Of a DNA stretch of 64,000 nucleotides, positions 8,765 to 60,918 are shown one piece after another; position 1 is the first letter of the stretch, and each line of letters opens with the position of its first letter. Origin of the DNA: Actinobacteria bacterium HGW-Actinobacteria-1 (GTDB taxonomy: Bacteria > Actinomycetota > Coriobacteriia > Anaerosomatales > Anaerosomataceae); NCBI GenBank assembly GCA_002841355.1, contig PHFB01000001.1, positions 62,001-126,000 on the forward strand, written 5' to 3'. Made by a program: the position numbers and the translations under genes. The notes under the pieces were generated by a model. It searched no databases. It worked only from the letters and a program-made list of their open reading frames with translations, and had not been told where the DNA came from.

Positions 8765-8839
8765 GGGCGATTAGCTCAGTGGGAGAGCGCTTCCTTCACA
8801 CGGAAGAAGTCACAGGTTCAAATCCTGTATCGCCCACCA
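8765..8839 (+). tRNA. tRNA-Val (anticodon CAC)
   Basis: The acceptor arms GGGCGAT (8765-8771) and ATCGCCC (8829-8835) pair perfectly, with discriminator A and an encoded CCA at 8837-8839. The D-arm has the TAGCTCAGTGGGAGAGC signature, the anticodon stem CTTCC/GGAAG encloses TTCACAC with anticodon CAC, and the T-arm has GGTTCAAATCC. It decodes GUG valine codons. A terminator follows directly, so it is a single-tRNA unit. Confidence 0.97.
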
Positions 8840-50823: not shown

Positions 50824-50835
50824 TATAGGCGAGTA

Positions 50836-50950
50836 CTTTCTTCAGGGCGGGGTGAGATTCCCCACCGGCGGTGACAGCCCGCGAGCCCCTTTTGGGGCAG
50901 ATCCGGAGAATTCCCGGAGCCGACGGTAGAGTCCGGACGAGAGAAGGAAG
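50836..50950 (+). ncRNA. FMN riboswitch (RFN element)
   Basis: The conserved core is plain: TTCAGGGCGGGGTGAGATTC, CCACCGGCGGTGA, CAGCCCGCGAGCC, CAGATCCGG, and GAGCCGACGGTAGAGTCCGGA before GAGAGAAGG. The variable hairpin is GCCCC/GGGGC (50885-50897). The basal stem P1 pairs 50836-50843 (CTTTCTTC) with 50943-50950 (GAAGGAAG), and that 3' strand is also the ribosome binding site of ribD. FMN binding should therefore hide the site directly, giving translational repression without a separate expression platform. Confidence 0.96.
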
Positions 50951-50958
50951 GTCGAGGC

Positions 50959-59373: not shown

Positions 59374-59739
59374 ATGTACGAACTCAGCGTAAAGGATCAC
59401 TTCGACGCTGCGCATTCGCTGCGCGGCTATCCGGGCGAGTGCGCGAAGCTTCATGGCCATACGTGGGATATCGAAGTCACCGTGGAGGGCGAGACCCTTG
59501 ACGGTATCGAGATCCTCTACGACTTCAAGCAGTTGAAGGCCGATCTGGCGGCCGTGCTTAAGCCGCTCGACCACGGGTTCCTCAACGAGGTACCGCCCTT
59601 CGACGTGCTGAGCCCGACCGCAGAGAACATGGCGCGCGTGCTCTACGAGCTCCTCGAGAAGCGTGTGGGCGATGCCGTCCGCATCAAGGAAGTCACCGTC
59701 TGGGAGTCGCCGATCGCGCGGATCACGTACCGGCGTTAG
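59374..59739 (+). CDS. queD: 6-carboxytetrahydropterin synthase (QueD/PTPS family)
   Basis: This 121-residue enzyme converts dihydroneopterin triphosphate to 6-carboxy-tetrahydropterin in queuosine synthesis. Zinc ligands H14, H27 and H29 (HFDAAHSL, KLHGHTW), nucleophile C23 and catalytic DHGFLNE (about 64-70) with ESP near the end are present. ATG 59374 follows GAGGAGGA at 59356-59363. No queC or queE is adjacent, so the pathway role is likely but not proved by context. Confidence 0.92.
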   Translation: MYELSVKDHFDAAHSLRGYPGECAKLHGHTWDIEVTVEGETLDGIEILYDFKQLKADLAAVLKPLDHGFLNEVPPFDVLSPTAENMARVLYELLEKRVGDAVRIKEVTVWESPIARITYRR

Positions 59740-59756
59740 TCGAGCCGAGATACACG

Positions 59757-59779
59757 AAGGCGGCCATCATGGCCGCCTT
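59757..59779. terminator. Bidirectional hairpin between queD and the opposing RNA
   Basis: AAGGCGGCC-ATCAT-GGCCGCCTT is a perfect 9-bp stem. It lies 17 bases after queD on the + strand and 8 bases beyond the 3' end of the candidate - strand RNA. T-runs are poor on both sides, but the position suits both units. Confidence 0.65.
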
Positions 59780-59787
59780 GGAATACA

Positions 59788-59964
59788 GGTGTCCCGAGAA
59801 ACCTCGGCTGCGGTTGTCTCTAATCCCCAAGCTTCCCATTTCTTACCTTCGGGAGCCGCTGACGCTCAGGACGCTTGCGCTAACCCCTTGCGACCACCGG
59901 ACCCTCCGGCAGCTACTGGTACGCTGGCTTTCAAGACTCGCTCGCTCCGACTTCTCGGGACACC
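59788..59964 (-). ncRNA. Candidate structured non-coding RNA (possibly 6S-like)
   Basis: Perfect 13-bp terminal arms (GGTGTCCCGAGAA at 59788-59800 and its complement at 59952-59964) close a roughly 177-nt element. Read on the - strand the closing stem continues inward with UCGG/CCGA, GCG/CGC and GUCU/AGAC pairs, then opens into a bubble region with small hairpins (CAGC...GCUG, CCGGA...UCCGG, GAGC...GCUC). A -35/-10 promoter sits at exactly the right distance upstream, and a hairpin follows the 3' end. Length, rod shape and free-standing unit recall 6S RNA, but I cannot confirm the family; no coding frame is supported here. Confidence 0.55.
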
Positions 59965-59968
59965 CATT

Positions 59969-59997
59969 ACGTTAGGGCACCCGAATTCTTGCGTCAA
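59969..59997 (-). promoter_or_regulatory. Promoter of the candidate RNA
   Basis: On the - strand TTGACG (59997-59992), a 17-bp spacer and TAACGT (59974-59969). The expected start falls at 59962-59964, the first bases of the 13-bp closing stem. Confidence 0.6.
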
Positions 59998-60234: not shown

Positions 60235-60918
60235 ATGCCAAGCGAAACGCTTGAGGAGTACCTAGAGGCTATCTACAAGTTGGCCGAGCGAGATGAGGCG
60301 CGACCGTCGCGTCTTGCTGATGCGATGTCCGTGTCCGCGCCGACCGTTACCGCAGCGCTCAAACGCCTCAAGGCACGTGGGCTGGTCACTCGACCCGGCG
60401 GAGCCATCGCCCTCACCGCAAGCGGCCGTTCCGAGGCACTGAGCATCATTCGGCGGCATCGTCTTGCCGAGCGCTTCCTGGTTGATGTGCTGGGCATGCC
60501 CTGGGAGGACGTACACGAGGAAGCGTGCAGGTTGGAGCACGCGCTGTCACCGAAGGTACAGGCTGCGCTCGAGGGCTATCTCGAGAACCCTGACGTATGC
60601 CCACATGGTCATCCGATTCCGTCGGCTGAGGGCAAGGTCGCGCTTGCGACTGGTGAGCCGCTGTGTGGTTTTGGCACGGGGTCCGAGGTTGAGATCGTAA
60701 GAATCGATGAGGAAGACGAGCAATTGCTCACCTACCTCGCTTCGCTCGGCATGTATCCCGGTACCCGTGTAAAGGTCTGCGACGTGGCACCGTTCCAAGG
60801 TCCACTGATGGTGGAGGTAGCCGGATCGCGATATGCGCTGGGTCGTGACATCGCCGGCAAGATCGTCGTGGATGCACCACTCACGGTTGCTTCGGGGAAG
60901 GGTCGCCGCAAGCCGTGA
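60235..60918 (+). CDS. DtxR-family metal-dependent repressor with C-terminal FeoA/SH3-like domain
   Basis: This 227-residue regulator has an N-terminal winged helix (about 1-65, PSRLADAMSVSAPTVTAALKRL), a dimerisation domain with metal ligands H75, C98, E101 and H102 (RRHRLAER, EACRLEH), and a FeoA-like SH3 domain (about 148-218, GSEVEIVRI...LGMYPGTRVKV). Cys at the DtxR-102 position points to iron (DtxR/IdeR type) rather than manganese (MntR has Glu). It overlaps feoB by four bases, so it probably represses the Feo system, itself included, when iron is ample. ATG 60235 follows GGAGG. Confidence 0.92.
   Translation: MPSETLEEYLEAIYKLAERDEARPSRLADAMSVSAPTVTAALKRLKARGLVTRPGGAIALTASGRSEALSIIRRHRLAERFLVDVLGMPWEDVHEEACRLEHALSPKVQAALEGYLENPDVCPHGHPIPSAEGKVALATGEPLCGFGTGSEVEIVRIDEEDEQLLTYLASLGMYPGTRVKVCDVAPFQGPLMVEVAGSRYALGRDIAGKIVVDAPLTVASGKGRRKP

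Follow-up and report, generated by a model that had tools for sequence, protein, structure and literature searches.

In the window (the whole 64,000-nucleotide stretch of DNA that was analysed) the gap between the queD and dtxR genes carries, on its minus strand, a closed rod-shaped element with its own promoter upstream and a hairpin downstream (Table 1). We are almost certain that this is the gene for a folded RNA, and that the RNA belongs to a previously undescribed family. The first-pass annotation had described a complete, unannotated RNA transcription unit at this place, which is supported by homologues, covariation and a promoter that recurs throughout the family.

Table 1 Positions of the RNA gene, its parts and its neighbours in the window.
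Feature	Position	Strand	Evidence
Structured RNA, ~175-177 nt	59788..59964	-	z -3.7; match to model R2; covariation
-35 hexamer TTGACG	59992..59997	-	sequence; family recurrence
-10 hexamer TAACGT, 17 nt from -35	59969..59974	-	sequence; family recurrence
5' strand of closing stem P1, GGUGUCCCGAGAA	59952..59964	-	perfect 13-bp arms; covariation
3' strand of closing stem P1, UUCUCGGGACACC	59788..59800	-	perfect 13-bp arms; covariation
Conserved core, 5' strand, GCGUACCAGUAGCU	59911..59924	-	invariance in alignment
Conserved core, 3' strand, GGUAAGAAAUGGGAAGC	59831..59847	-	invariance in alignment
Internal loop I, 5' strand, GAAAG	59928..59932	-	column counts
Internal loop I, 3' strand, GGAUUAG here, most often GGAGUAG	59820..59826	-	column counts
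Perfect 11-bp hairpin between RNA and queD, probable bidirectional terminator	59757..59779	-	
queD, 6-pyruvoyl tetrahydropterin synthase family, convergent neighbour	59374..59739	+	PF01242, E 5e-39
dtxR-type iron-dependent repressor with FeoA domain, divergent neighbour	60235..60918	+	PF02742, PF04023, PF01325

The arms of the closing stem, GGTGTCCCGAGAA and TTCTCGGGACACC, are exactly complementary over 13 bp and lie 151 nt apart, as had been claimed, and the rod-like fold read from the single sequence was also borne out: the minus strand between 59780 and 59966 folds at -83.2 kcal/mol (z -3.7), with 0 of 200 shuffled sequences folding as low, and the score is z -3.9 when the downstream hairpin is included (59740-59966). 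P1 closes this rod and a GNRA-type loop caps it. The hairpin proposed past the 3' end is present as AAGGCGGCCAT-G-ATGGCCGCCTT and is probably a terminator for both directions. It has no long U run on its 3' side, and the 3' end of the RNA is therefore not fixed, lying ~177 nt from the start if the RNA ends at the stem and ~208 nt if it ends at the hairpin; the hairpin of the first-pass annotation thus stands, and its length of ~177 nt does not stand as a fixed end.

We compared the gap with related genomes to delimit the family. A DNA search with the gap matched 63 of 99 relatives, frequently at two or three places in one genome, and among these matches is a second copy in the source genome itself (G000:C13); the named matches were titled Coriobacteriia, several of them Anaerosomatales, an order which is described in PMC9686372 and has cultured members. 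With a covariance model of the element (R1), the RNA was found in 64 of 398 Coriobacteriia genomes, these being 64 of the 69 Anaerosomatales, and in 0 of the 329 other Coriobacteriia sampled; these counts refer to evenly drawn samples of the genomes rather than to full sets. Early searches had suggested a family restricted to the order, an idea which was rejected when R1 was run over the phylum and found 23 further genomes from ten other families, with best E-values from 7e-11 to 1e-22. These distant members retain the rod, the two core strands described below and a consensus TTGAC promoter. A wider model (R2) recovers the distant lineages with stronger E-values, adds two more weak cases and scores the window copy at 140.3 bits (59789-59963). 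The covariance model is 173 positions long, and the homologous region stops at P1 and the tail. It should be noted that an early pattern scan over all species was narrow, as it required GCY and was blind to the GCG of distant members. Four matches titled as other phyla and one viral match to the narrow pattern scored at most 12.5 bits with the family model and were rejected, and a second viral pattern found no members on viral contigs.

The family comparison also settles the promoter. The window copy, TTGACG-17-TAACGT as first proposed, is not flagged by a generic consensus scan (threshold 9 of 12), and the evidence from this single sequence would therefore be weak. However, 83 of 91 family members have a TTG...TAnnnT pair with 16-18 nt spacing at this position, compared to 1.6% of shuffled upstream sequences. 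The -35 reads TTGAC in 44 of the 66 members from Anaerosomatales and in each of the 25 more distant ones. The A/T content 5' of the -35 in three groups was 49, 53 and 76%, against local values of 34, 37 and 55%, the enrichment being strongest in the distant lineages, with 76% compared to a mean of 55% around the locus, which suggests a putative UP element. At the other end of the gene, the first 14 nt downstream are 56% T in distant members; order members have a less U-rich tail followed by hairpins, which differ in sequence between relatives and lie at the same place 3' of the RNA, and the 55 nt downstream in order members have a mean z of -1.86 relative to shuffles. The tail ACACCUCUAUUC had suggested an anti-Shine-Dalgarno sequence mimicking 16S, a candidate which we rejected because distant members carry a U-rich tail at the same place, so that a terminator tail is more likely. 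A coding gene was likewise rejected: each sense frame contains a stop in 73-81 of 91 members, and no open frame is kept.

Compensatory changes in relatives, on which the first-pass annotation had made its reading depend, were found in two alignments. The first comprised 66 non-redundant members of the order (190 columns, mean identity 70%), in which 91.5% of cells are paired in a 47-pair structure. Two-sided changes occurred in 29 of the 47 pairs, with 320 such cells compared to 115 in shuffles, and the covariation score was 0.363 compared to 0.187, with 0 of 500 shuffles as high. These shuffle controls are inflated by relatedness; a control in which partners were slid by one column, which retains relatedness, reduced pairing to 45-49%. 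The second alignment, of 20 sequences from the other lineages, was made without the first structure and gave a closely similar fold, in which 32 of 47 pairs showed two-sided changes (165 cells compared to 66 in shuffles); this test is largely independent of the first. P1 is paired in 98% of cells in the 66 members and has two-sided changes in 6 of its 14 pairs in the other lineages. Across divergent families the helix sequences change while the fold stays: the closing and terminal stems covary, and the centre is a conserved loop region with a never-varying CC/GG.

This centre consists of 12 x 13 nt of near-invariant bases interrupted by the invariant CC/GG, pairs which, since they never vary, give no support to the structure as drawn. 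The first-pass annotation had placed an open region here; none was demonstrated. Conservation sits in the internal-loop nucleotides and in P1, without a long unpaired seed, and peaks in P1, in the core strands GCGUACCAGUAGC and GUGAAANGGGAAG and in the GAAAG / (R)AGUAG internal loop. The GUACCAG of the 5' core strand is invariant in the 66 members and largely retained in other lineages, the GAA and GG of the 3' core strand are invariant in the order and nearly so elsewhere, and the 5' strand of internal loop I is GAAAG or GAAAA in 51 of 66 members. From these motifs, AGUA/GAA pairings may form which presumably resemble bulged-G (sarcin-ricin or loop E) modules, a lead to the shape of the loop. 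In genomes of one family (f2; L165, L166 and L167) extra hairpins are inserted in the 3' core strand with the rest intact, indicating that the core tolerates addition at one point.

We compared the element to known RNAs to determine whether the family was new. No Rfam 15 family matched the RNA strand at E ≤ 10, either in the window or at 27 further loci, and among the members tested there was no match at this threshold to a ribozyme, riboswitch, Y RNA or CsrB; in L196 a chance antisense match (19 bits) reaches into the end of the element. The first-pass annotation had offered two options, 6S RNA and a new class of RNA. The new RNA does resemble 6S (RF00013) in being a stand-alone rod of ~175-190 nt with a long closing stem, its own promoter and sometimes two copies. 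However, the RF00013 model had no match on the element at E ≤ 10, neither in a local scan nor in a search of its own genome, where the sole 6S match is a separate locus (G000:C17:18312-18489, L031), and the models of the new family had no match to 6S RNAs. A separate 6S was also found in 86 of 98 relatives and in 22 of 23 distant carriers, so that both RNAs coexist in almost all carriers. At the centre the new RNA shows a near-invariant, purine-rich core, which may be either open or closed, rather than a demonstrated open bubble. Membership of 6S is thus contradicted, and the option of a new class is supported by the homologue and model searches, the covariation and the recurrent promoter. 6S has been described as absent from Actinobacteria (PMC9130861); contrary to this, we observed 6S above or near the Rfam cut-off to be widespread in Coriobacteriia and other deep Actinomycetota.

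The new RNA also shares features with Ms1 of Actinobacteria (PMC4191392, PMC9130861), which is likewise actinobacterial, stand-alone and structured, with conserved flanking genes. It is set apart from Ms1 by the description of the latter: Ms1 is ~300 nt long, bears extra hairpins 5' and 3' and adjoins HAD-hydrolase genes or an oxidoreductase (PMC9130861), whereas the new RNA has ~175 nt and lies by queD-dtxR or rnhA. Bacterial SRP RNA (RF00169) is also rod-like, compact and protein-binding, but a divergent SRP RNA was rejected since SRP RNA lies at a separate locus in all 6 genomes tested. CsrB-type and Y/YrlA-type RNAs offer a possible mode of action, that of a trans-acting RNA holding a protein; no Hfq, CsrA or TROVE protein, which commonly partner regulatory or RNP RNAs, turned up in 98 relatives, so these are probably not the partner, and a CsrB-, Y-RNA- or Hfq-type partnership was rejected.

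We also examined the genomic place of 87 elements, of which 55 lie beside queD and dtxR, 22 near gatB and 10 are unclassified. Pfam confirmed the neighbours as queD, dtxR/FeoA, feoB, RNase H, Zn-ribbon, NIF3, gatB, cobO and ubiD. The queD/dtxR copies are mostly in the gap between both genes and on the opposite strand to both, and in nearly all genomes this main copy has dtxR behind it and reads into the 3' end of queD; the gatB copies are mostly downstream of gatB on its own strand. A riboswitch or other cis leader was therefore rejected on account of this orientation, which leaves the main copy divergent from dtxR and convergent with queD, and of the paralogue near gatB, an unrelated site. 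A few genomes (family f12 or its relatives) have copies that are reversed in the gap or lie beyond dtxR, so the RNA does not need a particular orientation to its neighbours. Convergence with Nif3/Zn-ribbon/RNase H(/queD) genes persists in many distant families, judged from the starts of translated frames.

In a tree of the copies, one branch with support 94/86 splits the A-site copies from the gatB-type and unclassified copies, and the named gatB rows alone do not form one clade in the same tree (p-AU 0.05). The number of -35 elements other than TTGAC (mainly TTGCG; n = 22) is close to the number of members in the second paralogue group (n = 21). Second-group copies near gatB, for example L032:3552-3727, apparently have CTTGCG instead of TTGAC, and this difference in promoter sequence suggests that the gatB-side paralogues may be regulated differently. 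Two copies of the RNA ~0.3-2.5 kb apart, direct or inverted, were seen in L036, L037, L038, L051, L084 and L122. Weaker second copies in distant genomes (L197:3429-3585, G621:C14 and G602:C127) are possibly degenerate paralogues.

The gene anatomy, fold, covariation, distribution, synteny, duplicate copies and separateness from 6S and SRP RNA are established by these comparisons. For the function, the most likely reading, to which we give about an even chance, is that of a trans-acting RNA with an internal-loop core on which a protein docks. A sigma-70-type promoter of its own would drive transcription of the RNA towards the queD end, with dtxR behind it, and the product would be a stand-alone and probably abundant molecule of ~175 nt. 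It folds into the rod closed by P1 and capped by the GNRA-type loop, with the two near-invariant internal-loop strands at mid-rod as its functional core. Set within a rigid rod of purine-rich non-Watson-Crick loops, the core would dock a protein or protein complex, which the RNA would sequester or modulate in trans. We find this the most economical explanation because a long free antisense seed, a co-oriented gene downstream and a reading frame are all absent. It should be noted that a ribozyme, a ligand sensor or an RNA that binds RNA polymerase could have a near-invariant core as well.

We consider it unlikely that the RNA is a promoter mimic binding RNA polymerase, a third kind beside 6S and Ms1 in which P1 would stand for the downstream duplex DNA and the core for the melted bubble. 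Its size, closed rod, own promoter and duplicate copies resemble 6S, with its invariant CC/GG unpaired the 12 x 13-nt core would match a promoter bubble in size, and RIP-seq work argues that further polymerase-binding RNAs exist (PMC11077062). On the other hand, there is no similarity to 6S in sequence or by model in either direction, almost all carriers have a separate 6S, and covarying helices flank a core whose sequence hardly varies.

An antisense regulator pairing with mRNAs, which would explain the location in trans, the own promoter and the retained paralogues, appears improbable to us, given that conservation falls in short internal loops rather than in a long unpaired seed and that Hfq was not found in the 98 relatives. 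We hold it to be equally improbable that the core makes the RNA catalytic or a small-molecule sensor: near-invariant loop nucleotides between variable helices do resemble the cores of ribozymes and aptamers, but no sense gene lies downstream in the window, P1 together with the tail makes the RNA a self-contained unit, and no Rfam ribozyme or riboswitch matched. A divergent 6S, as a 6S-2 paralogue, would account for the general shape and size and for the two copies in some genomes, and is very improbable in view of the failure of the Rfam 6S model to reach E 10, the family models that do not match 6S RNAs and the separate 6S in the same genomes. That the locus is a mobile or operator-repeat DNA element rather than an RNA gene is scarcely credible, since the multiple copies (two or three in some genomes of the order) and the perfect inverted arms are outweighed by two-sided pair changes far above the shuffled and slid controls, a fixed promoter, synteny across families and no viral-contig members found.

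At least 64 of the 69 genomes sampled from the order have the RNA, as do several actinomycetotal families far from it, frequently next to the same operon, which points to a likely basic role. The RNA may reveal a new RNA-protein particle or a further regulator of RNA polymerase, in lineages in which Hfq and CsrA were not found; if the polymerase reading were true, this would be a third RNA polymerase-binding class, retained next to ordinary 6S in deep-branching Actinomycetota. The novelty lies in the RNA family and would be lessened by a mechanism of known kind such as polymerase binding. As the core is more conserved than the helices and the order has cultured members (PMC9686372), the function is directly testable.

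Two other RNA features were found in the window, both on the plus strand: an FMN riboswitch (RF00050, 113.6 bits) at 50834-50952 and a tRNA gene (RF00005, 72.6 bits) at 8765-8836.
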